Shown one piece after another: positions 4,500 through 57,500 of a stretch of 64,000 bases of DNA. Made by a program: the position numbers and the translations under genes. The stretch covers positions 1-64,000 of the forward strand of contig JBDRWD010000005.1 in assembly GCA_039802205.1 (NCBI GenBank), read 5' to 3'. Each line of letters opens with the position of its first letter. Position 1 is the stretch's first letter. Source of the DNA: a candidate division WOR-3 bacterium (GTDB lineage Bacteria; Hydrothermota; Tepidihabitantia; SM23-42; JAOAFX01). Below the pieces are notes generated by a model. The model was not told the DNA's origin, did not search any database, and was given only the letters and a program-made list of their open reading frames with translations.

Positions 4500-5990
4500 A
4501 TGGAAGGAAAGATTTCACTGAGAGTTGCGGGTATCATTGCCGGAGTAGCGGCAGTCGTTGCTTTTCTTTTTGGATTGATAATAAGTGCCGGGTTCCCCAC
4601 GATAACCAATAAGAACGAGGCACACGCGACGGACAAGGGATTGTATCCCATTGTAGATGAACAGGGCGGAAGTCCCTTTACCCAGGTTGCCGAAATGGTA
4701 TCACCGGCAGTGGTGAATATTTCTGCAGAGAAAACTGTTAAGACCGGAATTGATGAATTTCGATGGGAATTCCGTGGTCCATTTGAAGATTTCTTCCGGG
4801 ATTTCTTCAAAAATTTCCCCCCTCCCGAGAGCAAAACAAGGACTTTGGGCTCGGGGTTCATTATCTCCGAAGACGGTTATGTAGTGACGAACCACCATGT
4901 CATAAAAAATGCTTCCAATATCATCATCCGCCTCACCAATAAAAAAGAATACAAAGGCAATGCTGTGAAAATCATCGGTTCAGACTCCCGGACCGATGTC
5001 GCATTATTAAAGATTGAGACGAAAGAGAAACTTCCATATCTAAAGCTCGGCGATTCGGATAAAATCAAAGTAGGCGATTGGGTGATGGCGGTAGGTAATC
5101 CTTTTAATCTGGAAGGGACAGTGACGGTGGGAGTCATTTCGGCAAAGGGTCGGCACGATATTCCCTTAAGCGAAGGACCGGATTTACAGAACTTCTTACA
5201 GACAGATGCTGCGATCAATCCGGGTAATTCCGGAGGACCGTTGATCAATCTCCAAGGAGAGGTGATCGGAATAAATACCGCAATCACCTCTACGAGCGGC
5301 GGGAACATTGGCATTGGCTTTGCAATCCCCATAAATCTTGCCAAAAATATCATCGAAGAACTCAAGACAAAAGGCAAAGTAACGCGCGGATATCTGGGGG
5401 TTTATTTAGAAGAACTTACAGAAGAGATGAAAGAGGCATTGAATCTTCCTTCGCTGGATGGGGTGCTGATAAGCGAGGTGATCGCCAATTCTCCGGCTGA
5501 GGAAGCCGGGATAAAAGAGGGAGATGTGATAATTGAATATGATGGGAAGAAGGTTACAGATCTCCAGTCTTTGCGGTTGATGGTAGCTGGGACTACGCCT
5601 GGTAAGACGGTGAAGATAAAGTTGATAAGGAACGGTAAAGAGTTGGAGTTGAAAGTTAAGATTGGGGAAATGAAGGAGTCGGTTGCGGGTGTCAGCGAGG
5701 AAAAGCAGGCTACCGAACTTGGTCTCCAGGTAGTGGATATTGACAGTCCCAAGGCAAAAGAATATAATATCAGTGCGCAAAAGGGAGTGGTGGTGATTGG
5801 TGTGGATCCGAATTCGCCCGCGAGTGATGCCGGCCTGCAGGTGGGAGATGTGATAATCGGAATTGCCAACAAAGAGATTAAAAATTTGAGTGACTTCCGA
5901 AATGCACTTAAAGATTTGAAGAAGGGGAAGCCGGTGATCTTTCAGATTCAAAGGGGTGAACGCAAAAGATATGTAGCGGTGACACCATAA
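4500..5990 (+). CDS. htrA: Periplasmic serine protease HtrA/DegP family
   Basis: Envelope quality-control protease of 496 residues. A single membrane anchor or uncleaved signal spans residues 8-32. The trypsin-like domain carries the triad His133 (TNHHV), Asp166 (SRTDVALL) and Ser244 (NPGNSGGP). Two PDZ domains follow: the first contains GYLGV and SPAEEAGIKEGDVI, the second SPASDAGLQVGDVI. An insertion rich in Phe and Asp (FEDFFRDFFKNF, about 95-106) precedes the protease core and resembles the flexible LA loop of HtrA proteins. It is 14 bases after hsp20 and 7 bases before the sigma gene, so the three are surely one transcript. Confidence 0.96.
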   Translation: MEGKISLRVAGIIAGVAAVVAFLFGLIISAGFPTITNKNEAHATDKGLYPIVDEQGGSPFTQVAEMVSPAVVNISAEKTVKTGIDEFRWEFRGPFEDFFRDFFKNFPPPESKTRTLGSGFIISEDGYVVTNHHVIKNASNIIIRLTNKKEYKGNAVKIIGSDSRTDVALLKIETKEKLPYLKLGDSDKIKVGDWVMAVGNPFNLEGTVTVGVISAKGRHDIPLSEGPDLQNFLQTDAAINPGNSGGPLINLQGEVIGINTAITSTSGGNIGIGFAIPINLAKNIIEELKTKGKVTRGYLGVYLEELTEEMKEALNLPSLDGVLISEVIANSPAEEAGIKEGDVIIEYDGKKVTDLQSLRLMVAGTTPGKTVKIKLIRNGKELELKVKIGEMKESVAGVSEEKQATELGLQVVDIDSPKAKEYNISAQKGVVVIGVDPNSPASDAGLQVGDVIIGIANKEIKNLSDFRNALKDLKKGKPVIFQIQRGERKRYVAVTP

Positions 5991-5997
5991 TAATTGG

Positions 5998-6831
5998 ATG
6001 AGGTTCGGGCGATTCACGGAAAGGGGTTTGAACCAGTTCATTGAAGAGATAAACCGTTATCCAGTCCTCTCCAAAGAAGAAGAATTTGAGCTTGCCCGGC
6101 GTTTCCGTGAGAATAAAGATACGGCAGCGAAGGAAAAACTAATCCTTTCAAATCTGCGGATCGTTCTTCATGTTTGTAAGAATTATCTGGACTATGGTTT
6201 GAGTTTGAGCGAACTGATAAATGCGGGAACTCGCGGTTTAATCCACGCGATAGAGAAATTTGACGAACGGAAGGGTTATCGACTCAGCACCTATTCCATC
6301 TGGTGGGTAAAACGTGAAATCTTTAATGCATTGTTCTCCGAACAGGAACTTATCCCCAAGAGTTATTTGGCACGGCGGATTAAGATGTACATTCCTGATT
6401 TTGTCCAGGAACATGGCCGTGAGCCCTCGGTTCAGGAATTAGCGAAACATTTCAAGGTTTCCAGCCAGCAGATTTCCCGGGCATTGAGGGAATTGTTGCC
6501 GATAATTTCTCTTGACGAAACTCCTACCGAAGAAGAATATGGTCCCTTAATCGAAATTCTTTCCTTGGAAGAGGTTCCTCAAAGTTATGTGCTCCCTTCA
6601 CCCGAAGAGGTCTTGAGACGGAAGCAGGAATCTGAAAAGATTCAGAAGGCATTAAAGAAACTATCCCTGCGGGAAAAAGAGATAATCGAAAGAAATTTTG
6701 GTCTGGGTGATTACGAAACTCAGAGTCTTGAAGAGATTAGCCGGCTGATGAACATCACCAAGGAGCGGGTAAGACAGATCCGGGATAATGCTTTAAAGAA
6801 ATTAAGGCTGATCTTACCCAGGATCAAGTAA
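5998..6831 (+). CDS. Sigma-70 family RNA polymerase sigma factor (group 2/3, RpoD/RpoH-like)
   Basis: Promoter-recognition subunit of RNA polymerase, 277 residues. Region 1.2 (LNQFIEEINRYPVLSKEEE), region 2 (NLRIVLHVCKNY, FDERKGYRLSTYSIWWVKREI), region 3 and region 4.2 (SLEEISRLMNITKERVRQIRDNALKKL) are all visible. It lacks the long region 1.1 and non-conserved insert of primary sigma factors, so it is probably an alternative or compact sigma. Region 2.4 differs from the usual YATWWIRQAI, suggesting an altered -10 preference. It is encoded right after hsp20-htrA, so a heat-shock or envelope-stress role is likely, but it could be a primary sigma of a small genome. Confidence 0.9.
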   Translation: MRFGRFTERGLNQFIEEINRYPVLSKEEEFELARRFRENKDTAAKEKLILSNLRIVLHVCKNYLDYGLSLSELINAGTRGLIHAIEKFDERKGYRLSTYSIWWVKREIFNALFSEQELIPKSYLARRIKMYIPDFVQEHGREPSVQELAKHFKVSSQQISRALRELLPIISLDETPTEEEYGPLIEILSLEEVPQSYVLPSPEEVLRRKQESEKIQKALKKLSLREKEIIERNFGLGDYETQSLEEISRLMNITKERVRQIRDNALKKLRLILPRIK

Positions 6832-50619: not shown

Positions 50620-53600
50620 ATGCCGCAATTGCCAGCCGGGATCGGTCGGTATCAAATAATTAAAAAAATTGAAGAAGGGAATTACGCAACAGTCTATAAA
50701 GTTTCACTTCAAAACCGGGAATATATTTTAAAGATTGCCCGGAAGAATTTGCCCGAATTCAATGATCTGATCAAGAGGGAATTTCAGATTCTCGCGCAGT
50801 TCACCCACCCCAATATTGTTCCTACCCACGAATACAATACCGCCCCTGATGGCCGGGCTTATTTCGTTCTTGATTACATCAAGGGAAAACCAATAAATCA
50901 ATTCTTTCATGGGTTATCAGATGAGTTAATTGAGGCATTAATCCAGGTGATTAATGGACTCGGTGCTTTCCACAATAAAGGATTTGTTCATAGCGATTTG
51001 AAACCCGAACATATTATTTATAATCCTGAAGCGAAGAAGATCGTTCTCATTGATTTTGGTTTTGCCGGCATTACCACCCGACAGATTAAAAAATATGGCA
51101 CGGTCGGTTATGTGGCACCAGAGGTGTTAAAGGGAATCGGGATTGACCAGCGCAGTGACCTTTATTCCTTAGGCGTAATAATTTATGAAATTTTGTCTGG
51201 TACCAATTTGAAATTACCACTCCGACCAATACAAAATATCCCCGAGCAGTTGAACAATGTGATTCTTCGTCTCCTTTCAGAAGAACCTTGTTTAAGACCC
51301 ACTGTTCCGGAATTATATGAAGTCTTCACCGATCTTTTGCCCAAGAGGAAATTTGTGATTCCTCCTTACGAAGTTTCTCTTCCACCTACAATATTTGTTG
51401 AGATACCAGAGATAATGGAAAGGCTTTTAAGATTAAAAGGTGAGGCAGTGATCATCAACGGCGAGACCGGTTCTGGGAAGAGCCGCCTGTTAAAAGAGTT
51501 GAAATATAAATATCTATTTCAGGATTATGAAGTTTTTTCTTATACCGGGAGAGAAGAAGGTTACTTACACGAATTTATCTGTAGGTCTATAAATTTTAAA
51601 GATTTAAAATTTGCCGATAAGGAAGACCAGTTTCAGATCTTTGCTGAAATCACCGAGCATTTACTTGAATATGCCCGTAACCGCAGGGTTGTTTTACTCA
51701 TTGATGACCTCGATGAATTGAGTGATTATGAACTTGGCTTAATGCGATTCATCGGGCATAGCCTTGAGGAGACCAATATCACACTAATTGGCACAGCCAC
51801 TTCTGAACTGCGAGTTAAAGATCTAAACTTCTTTCAACTCAATTTGCGACCATTTTCCCGGAACGAAGTTCAATTATTGATTGAGAGGACATTTTTTGAA
51901 ATCAAACCCCGAGATGGGCAAGATTTAACATCCTTCATCGATTGGTTATATCAGCATACAGGGGGTAATCCGCTCTTCATTGTGGAGACCCTGAAGGAAC
52001 TTCATAATCAAAGAATTTTAAGATACTATATCAATCACTGGGAAATTGATATTGAAACACTGCACCGTGCCGGAATTCCAGAAAATGTCGCCGGACTATT
52101 ATCAAGGAGATTGCAAAGGCTTAGTGGAAATGCCCTTGCCATTTTAAAAATTCTGATGATCGCCGATTTCCCTCTCGACCTTTCGGTTCTCTGGCAAATT
52201 CTACCCGAAATGGAGATTGCCGATTTCGAGTTTTTGCATATGCAGGGGATGATTAAGGAGGAACGGCGCGGTGAAAAGAGATATTTCACAGTGGCTAATC
52301 AGTATTTGAAGAGTCTTATTGAAAAAGAAATCAGTGAAGAAGAGGTTGTTTTTTTAAGCAGAAAGATTATTGAAGTGATTGAAAAGACAATCCCTGCGGA
52401 GGTCTTTTATCCATTGCTCGCAAGATTGTATAAAAAAATCGGTTGTCCAAAAAAGGCTTTTTATTATTCTTACAATGCAGGAGTAGTCGCAGAAGAAGTA
52501 AATGACCGTAAGGGAGCGATAAAATTTTATACCAGTGCTCTTGAATCTGTCTATAACTTGGATTCGGAAGATGCAGCATCCGTTTTCCTCCGTCTGGGCG
52601 GACTTTATCTTCTTGACGGTGAGAATCACCGGGCGATTGAGTGCTACAATAAGACGATTGGATTAGAGAAATTCAAAGTTGCCGGACTATTTGGTCTTGG
52701 CAAGGCATATTCAAATCTGGGGGATTATGGGCAGGCGATTGAGTATTTAAAGAGTGCAAGTGCAACGGCAAGCGAAGAAAAAAACAAAGTTGAGATTCTC
52801 AACCGTCTTGCCTATTGTTATATTTGTTTAAAGGATTTTGCTCAGGGAAAAAAGATACTTAAGGAAGCTGAGGAACTTTCTCGGAAGATAGAAGCGCCTG
52901 AACTTGAAGCCGAGGTATTATACTACCTTGCAACATTGGAATGGTTTAGGGGCAATCACACTGATGGATTGCAAATCGGCAGAAAATTGCTTGAGTTCTG
53001 CGATAAAAAAGGCATGATCAAGCAACTGGCTTATGCTGCAAATCTTTTGAGTTCTTTTTTTATCCAGACCGGAGATATTGAAAGTGGCTTAAAGTATATT
53101 GACATTGCGATAGAGAATTTTGAGAAAATTAAATATTTAAATGCCCTGGGCGCAGCGATGATTAATAAAGGGTTTTTAATCCTTAATGCGAATGATTTTA
53201 CGGGAGCACTGAATACTTTTAAAAAGTCATTCAATATAGAATCACGACTAAAAAATCGTGTTCAGGAGTGCACAATTACTCTCTGTCTGGCAAATATCTA
53301 TGAAATCACGGGGAAATTAAAAAACGCCCTTGATTATTATAAGCGGGCAAAAGATATTGACCCGGATTCAGCGTATGCGAATTATGGCATGGCAATGATT
53401 TATTACAAGACCGGAGAGATTGATAGGGCAAAGGGTATACTTGAGGAAAGTTTGAAGAAAAAACATGAGGTCTTATATCTTATAGGACTTGGACTTATCT
53501 TTTTGGTGCTGGGAAAGAAAGAACTCGCAGAGGAATATATTGAGAGAGGAATTGCAATCATGGAAAAAGAAGGCGCTGAGATTTCAATCAAGCGAGAGGT

Positions 53601-55464
53601 ATATCTAAAATCGAGCCAGGCGTATTATGAGATAGGGGATTTTAAAAAGGGACTCAGTTTTGCCCGGCAGTTAAAAGATATTGCGATAAAAGGTAGTCGG
53701 GAATACTGGCTTGGTGATGGTTTGATAAAGATCAATGAATTCCGGCTCAAGGTGATTGGGGAACTGGATATCGAAGAGAATCTCACATATCTGAAAGAGA
53801 AAGAACTTTTGTATGATTATGCATATTTAAAGAGATTGAAGATCGAATCAATCATTGACCGTGGTATTGCCCAGGAGATGATAAAAGGGATTGCTGAGGA
53901 ACTGGAATCAGTAGCCCGGATTTTCCATGCCCTTGGTGGGACATTGGAACTAAACAGGGTGGAGAAGCTCAAATTAAGCTTCTATCCTCTGGTGGTGCGT
54001 GACTATTCAAGAAGGGTTATTTCAGCTCAATATTTTGAGACATTCTCTAAACTTGCCGAACTCATAAGTTCTCGACTTGGTGATGAAGACTTTATCGTCA
54101 ATATCCTTGATCTGGTGATAGAGGCAACCAGGGCTGAACGGGGAGCGGTATTCATCAAAACCGAAAAAGGGATGGAATTTGTGGCGGGCAGGAATATAGA
54201 CAGAAAGACAATCAAAGATGCGGGTGAGTTATCCAGAACCGCGATAGCCGAAATAAATAAAAATAGAATCGTCTTTGTTCCCAATGCTCTTGATGACCCG
54301 CGGTTTAATATAAGAAAAAGTGTTCTTTTAAACCAGATTCGTTCCATCCTGTGTATCCCGCTTGTGGTTGGTGCCAATGTGATCGGTGCAATCTACCTCG
54401 ATTCCCGGATGATTGGTTCCATCTTCAATGAACAGGACCGGGATTTTTTAATCACCATTGCCAGGATTCTTGCCTCGGTCATTGAGAAATCAATTGCCTT
54501 CCGTAATTTGAGCGAGGAGAACATTCTTCTGAAGACCAAGGTTATCAGCGATCTGGGCGCAGGTTATCTGTTGAGCAAATCCACGAAGATGAGAAGAATA
54601 TATAAAACAGTTGAGGCGATTGCCAATTCCGATGCCCCAGTTTTGATATACGGTGAGACCGGAACCGGCAAGGGGATGCTTGCTCGTTTGATTCATTTAA
54701 GGAGTAGACGCCGGGATAAGAAATTTTTATCCATAAACTGCGGGGCAATCCCTGAGACTTTGCTGGAATCTGAATTATTCGGACACAAAAAAGGTGCATT
54801 TACCGGTGCGATTGCGGATAAGAAGGGTCTACTGGAAGAGGCTGAAGGCGGGACAGTATTCTTAGACGAGATTTCCAACACCACCCCTGGATTCCAGGCA
54901 AAGATGCTTGAGGCAATAGAGGATAAGATCATCCGGAGGGTGGGTGAGACGACAACGAAGAGGATTGATGTCCGTTTCATCCTCGCCTCTAACCGGGACC
55001 TTGAAATTGAGGTAGAAGAGGGCAGGTTCCGCCAGGATTTATACTTCCGAATAAATGTCTTTAAGATAACGGTTCCACCCTTGCGTGAACGGGTCGTTGA
55101 TATCCCCCAGCTTGCCCGATTCTTTTTGGAGAGATATGCGAAAGAGATGGGTAAGCCGATACGGGGCTTTGCCCCTGGCGTGATGGAGCGGTTAAAGACC
55201 TACCACTGGCCCGGGAATATCCGGGAATTGATGAATGTGATTGAAAGGGCAGTCACCCTTTGCAATGGGGATTTGATTACCATGGAAGACATCGGTCTTG
55301 CAGCACCCAAAAAGGGGATAATACCTTTAGAGGAACTGGAAAAAGAGGCGGTCCTCGAGGCATTGAACGCGACAGGCTGGAATCGGACAAGGGCAGCAAA
55401 GAAACTGGGGATTGATCGGAGGACATTGTATAACTACATAAAAAAATATTCTCTATCCCCATAA
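50620..55464 (+). CDS. Ser/Thr kinase - AAA ATPase - TPR - GAF - sigma-54 activator fusion
   Basis: A 1614-residue cytosolic regulator. Domains in order: protein kinase (10-240; VAIK-type Lys38, Glu54, catalytic HSDLKPEH with Asp126, DFG Asp145, VAPE); AAA ATPase (about 255-500; Walker A GETGSGKS 281-288, Walker B LLIDDLDE); helical linker and about ten TPRs (620-1080); GAF (1138-1300); sigma-54 AAA+ (1320-1560; Walker A GETGTGKG, GAFTGA loop near 1391, FLDEI); Fis-type helix-turn-helix (1575-1614, NRTRAAKKLGIDRRTLYNYI). The Asn normally following HRDLKPE is His131, so kinase activity is uncertain. GAFTGA predicts contact with sigma-54. Two palindromes and a -24/-12 promoter lie just downstream, so autologous control of that operon is likely. 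Confidence 0.93.
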   Translation: MPQLPAGIGRYQIIKKIEEGNYATVYKVSLQNREYILKIARKNLPEFNDLIKREFQILAQFTHPNIVPTHEYNTAPDGRAYFVLDYIKGKPINQFFHGLSDELIEALIQVINGLGAFHNKGFVHSDLKPEHIIYNPEAKKIVLIDFGFAGITTRQIKKYGTVGYVAPEVLKGIGIDQRSDLYSLGVIIYEILSGTNLKLPLRPIQNIPEQLNNVILRLLSEEPCLRPTVPELYEVFTDLLPKRKFVIPPYEVSLPPTIFVEIPEIMERLLRLKGEAVIINGETGSGKSRLLKELKYKYLFQDYEVFSYTGREEGYLHEFICRSINFKDLKFADKEDQFQIFAEITEHLLEYARNRRVVLLIDDLDELSDYELGLMRFIGHSLEETNITLIGTATSELRVKDLNFFQLNLRPFSRNEVQLLIERTFFEIKPRDGQDLTSFIDWLYQHTGGNPLFIVETLKELHNQRILRYYINHWEIDIETLHRAGIPENVAGLLSRRLQRLSGNALAILKILMIADFPLDLSVLWQILPEMEIADFEFLHMQGMIKEERRGEKRYFTVANQYLKSLIEKEISEEEVVFLSRKIIEVIEKTIPAEVFYPLLARLYKKIGCPKKAFYYSYNAGVVAEEVNDRKGAIKFYTSALESVYNLDSEDAASVFLRLGGLYLLDGENHRAIECYNKTIGLEKFKVAGLFGLGKAYSNLGDYGQAIEYLKSASATASEEKNKVEILNRLAYCYICLKDFAQGKKILKEAEELSRKIEAPELEAEVLYYLATLEWFRGNHTDGLQIGRKLLEFCDKKGMIKQLAYAANLLSSFFIQTGDIESGLKYIDIAIENFEKIKYLNALGAAMINKGFLILNANDFTGALNTFKKSFNIESRLKNRVQECTITLCLANIYEITGKLKNALDYYKRAKDIDPDSAYANYGMAMIYYKTGEIDRAKGILEESLKKKHEVLYLIGLGLIFLVLGKKELAEEYIERGIAIMEKEGAEISIKREVYLKSSQAYYEIGDFKKGLSFARQLKDIAIKGSREYWLGDGLIKINEFRLKVIGELDIEENLTYLKEKELLYDYAYLKRLKIESIIDRGIAQEMIKGIAEELESVARIFHALGGTLELNRVEKLKLSFYPLVVRDYSRRVISAQYFETFSKLAELISSRLGDEDFIVNILDLVIEATRAERGAVFIKTEKGMEFVAGRNIDRKTIKDAGELSRTAIAEINKNRIVFVPNALDDPRFNIRKSVLLNQIRSILCIPLVVGANVIGAIYLDSRMIGSIFNEQDRDFLITIARILASVIEKSIAFRNLSEENILLKTKVISDLGAGYLLSKSTKMRRIYKTVEAIANSDAPVLIYGETGTGKGMLARLIHLRSRRRDKKFLSINCGAIPETLLESELFGHKKGAFTGAIADKKGLLEEAEGGTVFLDEISNTTPGFQAKMLEAIEDKIIRRVGETTTKRIDVRFILASNRDLEIEVEEGRFRQDLYFRINVFKITVPPLRERVVDIPQLARFFLERYAKEMGKPIRGFAPGVMERLKTYHWPGNIRELMNVIERAVTLCNGDLITMEDIGLAAPKKGIIPLEELEKEAVLEALNATGWNRTRAAKKLGIDRRTLYNYIKKYSLSP

Positions 55465-55502: not shown

Positions 55503-55519
55503 TGGGAAAAATTTTCCCA
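55503..55519. promoter_or_regulatory. Putative upstream activator site 1
   Basis: TGGGAAAAATTTTCCCA, a perfect palindrome of 8-bp arms around one base, with ACAAC/AATG flanks. Centre about 157 bases upstream of the predicted start site. Confidence 0.75.
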
Positions 55520-55572: not shown

Positions 55573-55590
55573 TTGGGAAAAATTTTCTCA
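55573..55590. promoter_or_regulatory. Putative upstream activator site 2
   Basis: TTGGGAAAAATTTTCTCA repeats site 1 with one change in the right arm; its right flank GTTG mirrors the left flank CAAC of site 1. The centres are 71 bases apart, close to seven helical turns. Confidence 0.75.
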
Positions 55591-55617: not shown

Positions 55618-55633
55618 TCATGAAATTTCATGA
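55618..55633. promoter_or_regulatory. 16-bp palindrome next to the -24 element
   Basis: TCATGAAATTTCATGA is perfectly self-complementary and unlike the two activator sites. It ends nine bases before the -24 GG, where a repressor or bending protein could act. Confidence 0.55.
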
Positions 55634-55641
55634 ATTTTTAT

Positions 55642-55658
55642 TGGCATGATTTTTGCTA
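55642..55658 (+). promoter_or_regulatory. Sigma-54 (-24/-12) promoter
   Basis: TTGGCATGATTTTTGCTA contains the invariant GG (55643-55644) and GC (55655-55656) separated by exactly ten bases, with the family context TGGCAYG and TTGCT. The start should be near 55667, giving a 15-base leader with AAAGGAG. No TTGACA-type promoter competes. Confidence 0.85.
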
Positions 55659-55682: not shown

Positions 55683-55874
55683 ATGAGAAGAGCAATAACA
55701 TATATCATGATTCTTTTGGTCTTGGGCGGCATTTTTGGCTTGAGCCTCCGCCCGCATAATAACCCAATAATCGGGTCAACAGTTGATATCATTGCACCTG
55801 CAGTCGCGTATGCAGATTCCGATACGGTAAGGTCTCCTTTCCCTCCTCCTCCGCCACCGCCACCGATTGATTAA
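55683..55874 (+). CDS. Small exported peptide precursor with polyproline C-terminus
   Basis: A 63-residue product, ATG 55683 behind AAAGGAG (55671-55677). Residues 1-22 are a basic-start hydrophobic segment (MRRAITYIMILLVLGGIFGL). Residues 33-45 are again apolar and end in AVAYA, a good signal-peptidase AxA site. The part beyond it would be DSDTVRSPFPPPPPPPPID: acidic start, eight consecutive prolines, Ile-Asp end. Proline codons are mixed (cct, ccg, cca), so this is not simple slippage of one triplet. First gene of the sigma-54 operon. I do not recognise a family; secreted signal, surface ligand or adaptor are all possible. Confidence 0.78.
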   Translation: MRRAITYIMILLVLGGIFGLSLRPHNNPIIGSTVDIIAPAVAYADSDTVRSPFPPPPPPPPID

Positions 55875-55892: not shown

Positions 55893-56087
55893 ATGGGACC
55901 TGTCCATCTTTATGAGATAAAGATGATTGATGGCTCGAAATATCGGGGCGAGATTGCCTACCGGGATGATAAGATGATTGTGCTCAAATTAAACCGGCTT
56001 AATAATCTTGGAGTGGCGCAGAAGATTCGGCTCTTCTATAACGGCATAATGAGCATCCAGGAACTCGGCTGGAGAAGGAGATTTTAA
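55893..56087 (+). CDS. Small LSm/Hfq-like fold protein
   Basis: A 64-residue protein beginning ATG 55893 after GGAGGGG. The pattern fits an Sm fold: strand 1 VHLYEIKMIDG, strand 2 SKYRGEIAYRDD with the conserved Gly and Asp, strand 3 KMIVLKL, then QKIRLFYNGIMSIQEL in place of the Hfq Sm2 motif (YKHAIST). The C-terminus GWRRRF is basic. The Hfq KH signature is absent. It may bind RNA or serve as a small oligomeric adaptor; fold assignment is inference from the residue pattern. It is 18 bases after the peptide gene and shares its transcript. Confidence 0.75.
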   Translation: MGPVHLYEIKMIDGSKYRGEIAYRDDKMIVLKLNRLNNLGVAQKIRLFYNGIMSIQELGWRRRF

Positions 56088-56156: not shown

Positions 56157-57500
56157 ATGGGATTTATGTTTAATTTAATAGCTATCGGACTATTGATAAT
56201 TTCTGCGATTATATTATTTTTTTGTTCCAGAAAGGAGTGGGGTAAGATATTGATTTTTTTCGGGATTGCATTATTTTTAATGGCACTTAAGTATATTTTG
56301 AACCTGTTACATATTTATTTACCAATACTCATCTTTGATATCCTCACCCTTTTTGGTGCAATTTTGTTTTTAATTGTGACCTTATCTCTCCGCAGAATTT
56401 CCCGCGAGATGGAAAGAAAGAGCATCCACCTTAAAGGATTGTGGGAAATGGATCGGATTTTGCTCAGTGGATTGACTTCCAAAAGTATCATGGAGGCGAT
56501 TAAAAAGACGATTGTTGAAATCGTTGATTGCAATGCCCTGGCGATCTATACCATTGATGCTTGGACCGGAGATTTTATCCTCTATAACAATTACAACCTT
56601 AACGATACATTCCATAGTGGGGTTCTAAGCCAGGGTAAGGATTTTCTTAAAGAAGTGATAACAAGTAAAAAGACAATATGCACTCGAGGAACGGGGTTTC
56701 GTCATAAAGATTTTTTATCGTTCATCCAAAATTTCGGTTTTAACATATGCGCCGGAGTTCCTTTGGTCATTAGAGGTATGCCGATTGGAACATTGCTAAT
56801 TTTTTCTCAAAGGAAAAGGGGATATGAAAAACAAGAGATTGAGTATATTGAAGGGATTGCCCGCCAACTGGTAGTTACCATGGACAGAATTCAAACATTT
56901 GAGAAAATGAAAGAAATGACAGTAGAATCGGTCCAGGCATTGGTCCAGGCGATTGAGATGCGCGATCCATCGACACGGGGACATTCGGCACAGGTCGCCG
57001 AACTGGCGCTTGAACTTGCCCGAAGAATGGAATTTCCGGATAGAAAATTGATCCTGATCAATTTTGCTGGCTTATTACACGATGTTGGTAAGATTGCGGT
57101 TCCCGAGGATATTTTAAGAAAACCTGAGGCGCTGAACTTAGAAGAATGGAAAATCGTAAAGAATCATCCTATCCACAGTATGAACATTGTAAAACCAATA
57201 AAAAATCTTGCTGAGATTAGTAAATGGATATTATACCACCACGAGCGCTGGGATGGTTCGGGTTATCCCGAGGGTTTGAAAAAAGAGGCGATTCCCTTGG
57301 AATCAAGGATTCTGGCAGTTTGTGATGCCTTCTCCGCAATGGTGAGTGACCGACCGTATCGTAAAGGGCTCACTCTCGAAATTGCAATAGAGGAGATTAA
57401 GAAATGTGCGGGACAACAGTTTGATCCAGGAATAGTGAAGATATTTTTAAATATTCCCGAAGAATTTTTAAAAAATTTTATCAGAAGAAATTTCGAATAG
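56157..57500 (+). CDS. HD-GYP phosphodiesterase with membrane helices and GAF domain
   Basis: Predicted cyclic di-GMP phosphodiesterase of 447 residues. Three hydrophobic helices (about 3-80), a GAF domain (about 100-245; CNALAIYTIDAWTGDFILY, ICAGVPLVIRGMPIGTLLIFS), then HD-GYP: RDPSTRGHSAQVAELALELAR, GLLHDVGKIAVPEDIL, YHHERWDGSGYPEGL, RILAVCDAFSAMVSDRPYR. All catalytic residues are present. GGAG precedes ATG 56157. It is the first gene past the sigma-54 operon terminator and so may be its signalling output. Confidence 0.93.
   Translation: MGFMFNLIAIGLLIISAIILFFCSRKEWGKILIFFGIALFLMALKYILNLLHIYLPILIFDILTLFGAILFLIVTLSLRRISREMERKSIHLKGLWEMDRILLSGLTSKSIMEAIKKTIVEIVDCNALAIYTIDAWTGDFILYNNYNLNDTFHSGVLSQGKDFLKEVITSKKTICTRGTGFRHKDFLSFIQNFGFNICAGVPLVIRGMPIGTLLIFSQRKRGYEKQEIEYIEGIARQLVVTMDRIQTFEKMKEMTVESVQALVQAIEMRDPSTRGHSAQVAELALELARRMEFPDRKLILINFAGLLHDVGKIAVPEDILRKPEALNLEEWKIVKNHPIHSMNIVKPIKNLAEISKWILYHHERWDGSGYPEGLKKEAIPLESRILAVCDAFSAMVSDRPYRKGLTLEIAIEEIKKCAGQQFDPGIVKIFLNIPEEFLKNFIRRNFE

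Follow-up and report, generated by a model that had tools for sequence, protein, structure and literature searches.

Why should the gene for a giant TPR-bearing transcription activator be followed by a short open reading frame that ends in a run of prolines, and is that frame a gene at all? The question is raised by a 64,000-nucleotide stretch of DNA from a candidate division WOR-3 bacterium (the window), in which the frame at 55683-55874 (+), with the Shine-Dalgarno sequence AAAGGAG 5′ of its ATG, starts 218 nt after the end of the regulator gene. A first-pass annotation had read it as an exported peptide encoded by the first gene of a sigma-54 operon, and had suggested a relation with the neighbouring TPRs.

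A conserved gene for a Pro-tailed peptide

We find that 55683-55874 is a real, conserved gene, beyond chance. Its translation, MRRAITYIMILLVLGGIFGLSLRPHNNPIIGSTVDIIAPAVAYADSDTVRSPFPPPPPPPPID followed by a stop codon, gives a Pro-tailed precursor of 63 aa that is predicted to be exported, and the features first noted in it are all present: the end of eight prolines and Ile-Asp, the AVAYA|D site and a 19-residue putative mature part. The precursor has a basic start and reaches its best 12-residue Kyte-Doolittle mean (2.72) from residue 8. Across the orthologue alignment D45 is invariant and A44 nearly so, which is the basis for putative cleavage at AVAYA|D; the putative mature peptide that follows is DSDTVRSPFPPPPPPPPID (55815-55871, +), and the net charge of the tail is -2.

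Some 15 genomes of the order to which the window genome belongs (WOR-3/Stahlbacteria) carry orthologues of the peptide. A single-sequence search of 61 genomes located them in genomes sharing the genus, the family or the order, and a profile search returned one strong copy in most carrier genomes, with a second in both G014 and G019. A K/R start and a hydrophobic core are common to most of them, as are the stretch (D)APVIxxxLDxIxPAVAYADS and a Pro-rich end, with tails closing on PPPPPID, PPPPPIN, PPPPIDG, PPPIW, PPPKE or PPPPTE; frame, length and tail character are kept among them. Whole-ORF dN/dS is 0.06-0.24 in close orthologue pairs, while for the tail alone it is 0.07-0.24 in four comparisons (window pair, genus g6) and 0.48 in two g7 pairs, and the peptide genes of relatives show synonymous differences in their Pro codons. 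Two doubts that accompanied the first-pass annotation, namely that the frame might be broken in close relatives and that conservation might be confined to promoter DNA, are thereby laid to rest: the frame is kept, and selection acts at the protein level. Frame, dN/dS and synonymous Pro-codon changes together rule out a chance ORF as well as promoter-only conservation.

Other explanations of the frame can be set aside in turn. Slippage in a Pro-codon repeat is ruled out by the mixed use of codons, which in the window read CCT CCT CCT CCG CCA CCG CCA CCG. A small RNA in place of a peptide is likewise ruled out, the codon pattern showing translation and four loci giving no Rfam match. Nor does the product belong to a known peptide family, as it has no Pfam match at E<=10 and its best NCBIfam match (E 0.08) is far below cut-off.

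Promoter, operon and the Hfq-like neighbour

That the peptide gene opens a sigma-54 operon, as first proposed, is borne out by a -24/-12 promoter, TGGCATGATTTTTGC (55642-55656, +). This is the sole mismatch-free match of the searched promoter pattern in the 2.65-Mb genome, and its position 41-47 nt 5′ of the peptide ATG is conserved in all orthologues with complete upstream sequence, except the G014b and G019b paralogues. Further upstream stand the palindrome TGGGAAAAATTTTCCCA (55503-55519) and its one-mismatch copy TGGGAAAAATTTTCTCA (55574-55590), which, as read from the sequence, are probable enhancer sites 1 and 2 for the activator. Another palindrome, TCATGAAATTTCATGA (55618-55633), directly precedes the -24 element; a similar one is present in G001, and related sequence in the promoter copies on contigs C30 and C75 of the window genome. 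Palindromes lie upstream in most orthologous loci, often as two about 70 bp apart and of the type TGCGACA-AAA-TGTCGCA; such pairs upstream of a promoter are the usual layout of enhancer sites. Within 260 nt downstream, a sigma-54 promoter is found at 23/45 regulator loci versus 0/187 control genes and 6/900 shuffles, and the TGCGACA half-site occurs at 18/45 regulator loci versus 5/187 control genes. By pattern, the peptide gene is shown to be sigma-54-promoted in about half of the loci.

Two further observations concern these elements. At G000:C75:454-509 (L003) the promoter and its upstream palindrome recur as a stray copy, 84% identical over 56 nt, with no peptide gene behind it, and in G144-G146 (L111, L112, L113) several GTGTAACnnnnnGTTACAC palindromes, probably lineage-specific enhancer sites, lie between the regulator and the peptide gene.

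The next gene of the operon (55893-56087, +) encodes a 64-aa Hfq/Sm-like protein of a family confined to the order, save one weak match elsewhere in the phylum. Its AlphaFold model, of moderate confidence (pLDDT 78), is best matched by bacterial Hfq (TM 0.70, E ~3e-3) and predicts a five-stranded Sm-like barrel, with the conserved positions in the same order as in Hfq. It differs from Hfq in that NGI replaces the KHA motif and in giving no Pfam match, Hfq included, although one homologue reaches Hfq_1 at E=0.1; canonical Hfq (PF17209) was not found in the window genome. A second Hfq-like clade, in G003, G004, G015, G016 and G019, is peptide-free, and in G017, G015 and G023 (L027, L028, L026) a second Hfq-like gene lacks a peptide too and is preceded, at about 46 nt, by a sigma-54 promoter of its own. 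The CCTCC in the Pro codons is complementary to the Shine-Dalgarno sequence of the Hfq-like gene, from which comes the idea of a possible coupling. A membrane-anchored GAF and HD-GYP-type protein (56157-57500, +; Pfam HD_5, GAF), with homologues downstream in most orthologous loci, is a probable further member of the operon and its probable output.

This arrangement could be read as a SecM/VemP-like leader peptide sensing secretion or EF-P, in which a poly-Pro stall would control the Hfq-like gene in cis. The Pro run stands after a leader and 0-5 codons before the stop, the Hfq-like start follows 7-21 nt further on, and poly-Pro is known to stall ribosomes without EF-P. Also bearing on a stall is an apparent SmpB gene, recognised by eye from its translation, that lies 3′ of the peptide gene in G056 (L091) and G048 (L097), probably through synteny. 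In more distant relatives, however, the Pro-tailed peptide directly 5′ of the Hfq-like gene is replaced by a repeat precursor (a leader with GPDAPPPSP repeats in G009 and G012; GPEAPPQPT repeats in G011; GGIPQPPPSGR repeats in G020), and in such precursors the Pro motif is present in several copies, a long way from the stop. It was these precursors that first suggested the Pro-rich segment as the functional unit. Further against control in cis, the pairing of peptide and activator persists without the Hfq-like gene in G007 (MKRIFGWLLSLIFVLGIISAISSTLVHAYGHVSAGMDAPIPPPPPDSSG) and for the G003 paralogue (MKKLLQILSMVMLVMSILLPTTVSAFTDSNSPLYGDDTILPPPPPTPPPPPPPGP), both peptides being leadered and Pro-tailed. 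That peptides follow regulators in loci lacking the Hfq-like gene also rules out the peptide as a partner of that gene only.

Pairing of Pro-rich peptides with one activator family

The gene upstream of the peptide (50620-55464, +) encodes an activator and putative receptor of 1614 aa, which according to Pfam combines a Ser/Thr kinase, an AAA/STAND-type ATPase, a TPR superhelix, GAF, a sigma-54 activator domain and a Fis-type HTH_8. Homologues are present in 35/147 genomes of the phylum with the window protein as query (E<=1e-70) and in 58/147 with the G033 homologue as query (E<=1e-50); the family is 1600-1800 aa long, TPR-rich and predicted to be cytosolic. AlphaFold models the TPR region of the window activator (aa ~631-1135) as a confident superhelix (pLDDT 94.4). 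Among the solved structures nearest to it are peptide-binding TPRs (LGN/Inscuteable), and kinesin light chain is among the TPR sequence matches, a likeness that is generic across LGN, OGT and kinesin light chain; no RRNPP receptor is among the best fold matches of the model. The window genome holds a paralogue of this regulator (L039; G000:C30 3899-8716, -), 56% identical over its whole length, whose own palindromes and sigma-54-like promoter drive an HD-domain protein and no peptide.

The adjacency of peptide and TPR regulator, on which the first reading had built, is not accidental, since Pro-rich ORFs recur 3′ of homologous activators. We scored loci by a rule that calls for a Shine-Dalgarno start, a length of 12-150 aa, six or more Pro among the final 20 residues and a position <=480 nt downstream. 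By this rule 27/45 loci of the kinase-ATPase-TPR-GAF-sigma54 family score, these 45 being related to one another and not independent, as against 0/185 other genes in the same loci, 0/45 reverse strands and 2/4500 shuffled segments. Because the rule was fixed after the first examples had been seen, the evidence lies in the contrast with the controls and not in the raw count. About six more loci have a Pro-rich peptide by eye that misses the rule (e.g. G003, G014, G056, G076, G144 and G145), and the peptides are spread over ten families (f1, f2, f4, f5, f6, f10, f13, f15, f18 and f37). This survey shows that the Pro-rich peptide belongs with the upstream activator, as a phylum-wide pattern in WOR-3. 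A peptide behind every sigma-54 activator is ruled out, as 0/11 other sigma-54 activators of the window genome score.

Some members of the activator family have no Pro-rich peptide 3′ of them, namely the C30 paralogue and those of G137, G138 and G128. Downstream of the paralogue activators in G001 and G002 are HD-domain proteins, and downstream of the activators in G077, G137 and G138 large exported proteins; in G008 and G004 the peptide operon has no regulator next to it. Behind the regulator homologue of G128 (L087), at 5328-6719 (+), is a radical SAM/SPASM peptide maturase, closest in NCBIfam to Clo7bot/CefB, below cut-offs; a Pro-rich small ORF was not found near this regulator.

The peptides themselves come in three forms: a signal sequence with one Pro tail, a signal sequence with tandem repeats, and leaderless micro-ORFs of 16-21 aa. 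Most of the family measures 16-105 aa, with 127 aa in G056. Common to the leadered forms are a basic start, a hydrophobic core and an AxA site, and single tails of this kind occur in G074, G076, G036/G038, G143, G144, G145 and G146. Tandem Pro-rich repeats are found in G009, G011, G012 and G020, in leadered peptides of G061 (105 aa, four VDGIPHPPKPVPPTQ-type units) and G056 (DGGTFPPTPGPNGDGM-type units), and in a leaderless one of G086 (two GIPIDMPGSPRPPW units). Leaderless micro-ORFs include those of G033 (MDGIVPILPPPRPAPPVK), G031 (MDAPIVPILPPPRPAPPVK), G039 (MDGPIIPILPPPRPAPPMD), G041 (MDGPIIPILPPPLPAPPMN), G054 (MDGWARPLPPPAPAPPQV) and G029 (MFGVFVPPSPLPVPPK). Since all three forms have a Pro-rich part, the shared product is the Pro-rich segment, not the leader or the Hfq-like gene, and the leaderless micro-ORFs of sister lineages mean that not all of the peptides have a Sec leader. 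The first-pass annotation had proposed to see whether the C-terminal tail is the conserved part. It is in its Pro-rich character, which recurs downstream of similar regulators even with an unrelated leader and neighbours, but not in the exact end of eight prolines and Ile-Asp, which varies.

The micro-ORFs also bear on action in cis. In five f6 genomes (G033, G031, G039, G041 and G054) the micro-ORF stands between a sigma-54 promoter and a convergent gene, with a clear GC-rich hairpin separating it from that gene in 4/5, and in two f5 genomes the gene after the micro-ORF is convergent too. Aligned micro-ORFs differ mainly by synonymous changes in most pairs (6 synonymous and 1 amino-acid change between G033 and G031), the pairs G039/G041 and G058/G053 being little informative with their few synonymous changes. 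Since no gene other than the micro-ORF precedes the convergent neighbour, the peptide is the only evident protein product of its unit, and this speaks against control in cis by a leader or arrest peptide. With no gene behind them on their own strand in f5 and f6, attenuation or arrest in cis is disfavoured, and we regard a stall controlling the Hfq-like gene as highly improbable.

Proposed function and relation to known systems

The reading we favour, at a probability of about 0.52, is that the neighbouring TPR activator takes the peptide as a secreted signal or feedback ligand, for which we infer binding, secretion and re-import. The activator would bind the palindromes and drive the sigma-54 promoter of the peptide operon, a Sec-type leader would take the precursor across the inner membrane, and cleavage at AVAYA|D would free the tail of about 19 residues as an extracellular or periplasmic signal. 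The tail might then be re-imported, Opp-type binding proteins being present (PF00496 in 27/27 genomes of the order, six in the window genome), or be sensed otherwise, and would then affect the activator, the simplest way being for the tail to occupy the TPR superhelix. Such contact would tune transcription of the peptide, Hfq-like and GAF/HD-GYP genes, in a feedback of presumed sign. In the leaderless lineages the peptide could leave by another exporter, as SHP/PrgQ peptides do, or act inside the cell. The TPR superhelix, its likeness to LGN, the OppA-type proteins, the tandem repeats, the micro-ORFs and the locus counts all speak for a signal, short of proof. Counting against it are the 44 aa before the cleavage-like site, unusually long for a simple Sec leader, the generic nature of the TPR likeness, the family members with no peptide behind them, the peptide operons of G008 and G004, and the leaderless forms.

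If the peptide were instead intracellular, it might be a feedback ligand of the TPR/ATPase part of the activator, an autoinhibitor or coactivator made from the activator's own target promoter, with export, where present, being secondary or serving peptide removal. Such a role is consistent with leaderless micro-ORFs that are sole genes before a convergent neighbour in several genomes, and with a TPR-rich regulator family predicted to be cytosolic. It seems unlikely nevertheless, for most deep branches (f1, f2, f4, f10, f13, f15 and f37) have retained signal sequences and the tandem repeats of leadered precursors point to extracellular processing. We think it quite doubtful that the peptide is an exported effector (an antimicrobial, or an envelope or adhesion part) made on demand by the sigma-54 activator and not a signal. 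Export leaders, repeats and a conditional promoter would suit an effector, as would the family activators that drive large exported proteins instead (G077, G137, G138), and animal Pro-rich antimicrobial peptides also come from repeat precursors. However, most tails checked are acidic (-1 to -3), unlike cationic Pro-rich antimicrobials, with G146 (+3) as the exception; next to the peptide genes we recognised neither a transporter nor an immunity gene, and leaderless forms of 16-21 aa would make poor envelope parts.

Bacillota and their mobile elements are known to signal with peptides through cytosolic TPR receptors. To our mind the chances are even that WOR-3 holds an undescribed phylum-wide class of ribosomal Pro-rich peptide signals in diderms, with a dedicated giant kinase-ATPase-TPR-GAF-sigma54 receptor-activator to read each of them. 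The same evenly poised reading would include an origin independent of RRNPP, with ligand genes that are leadered, multi-copy or leaderless with 16-21 residues. If this is true, the TPR-receptor design has arisen repeatedly, since WOR-3, a deep and mostly uncultured diderm phylum, would have a system parallel to that of the Bacillota. A short peptide would then be linked directly to control by sigma-54, to kinase activity and to HD-GYP/Hfq-like output, and some 30 ligand-receptor pairs would be open to test. In any case, conserved genes of 16-21 codons have come to light, much shorter than annotation cut-offs usually allow.

In the open-licence literature searched, neither a system of sigma-54 TPR activator and Pro-rich peptide nor any WOR-3 peptide system is described. 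With SecM, MifM and VemP the peptide shares a short exported ORF with a Pro-containing C-terminus 5′ of another gene, but here it is tied to the upstream regulator; a target gene is present in the window, and membership among arrest peptides fails on the f5 and f6 micro-ORFs, which lack one in cis. Pro-rich antimicrobials of the apidaecin and oncocin type, sometimes made as tandem repeats, resemble the peptides in their proline content and, in some of our loci, in their repeats; they are cationic and Arg-rich, whereas most tails here are acidic (-2 in the window) and each peptide is linked to a transcription activator. The C-terminal GAF, Sigma54_activat and Fis HTH domains, together with a -24/-12 promoter and palindromes downstream of the activator gene, are those of the NifA/NtrC/NorR class of sigma-54 enhancer-binding proteins, from which the system differs by its N-terminal kinase, its ATPase, a TPR superhelix of about 500 residues and a dedicated downstream peptide gene.

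A further comparison is with RRNPP systems (Rap-Phr, PlcR-PapR, NprR-NprX, Rgg-SHP, ComR-ComS, AimR-AimP), in which a short precursor gene likewise stands beside that of a cytosolic TPR regulator. These are recognised by a propeptide of 10-100 aa with a Sec leader or SHP/PrgQ-type export, a receptor of 250-500 aa with TPRs binding the mature peptide, adjacent genes and, in transcriptional members, an Xre/HTH_3 domain (PMC10075063). Propeptide size (63 aa in the window), adjacency (218 nt in the window, 27/45 loci by rule, with G008 and G004 as exceptions) and the presence of TPRs (Pfam, AlphaFold) all agree. Both leadered and leaderless precursors occur, as in RRNPP (PMC10075063, PMC11343458), the former with basic start, hydrophobic core and AxA site, which make Sec export plausible, and the latter in f5 and f6, and the tandem Pro-rich repeats find a parallel in the multi-copy Phr pheromone precursors (PMC11343458). 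On the other hand, the receptor has 1614 aa (1600-1800 in the family) and adds kinase, ATPase, GAF, sigma-54 activator and Fis HTH parts; no HTH_3 is among its listed Pfam matches, which have Sigma54_activat and HTH_8 instead. The tails are Pro-rich where those of RRNPP are hydrophobic or mixed, and both the sigma-54 promoter and the diderm phylum set the system apart. With a receptor far too large and a non-Xre HTH, it is not filed as RRNPP, but it may work like RRNPP.
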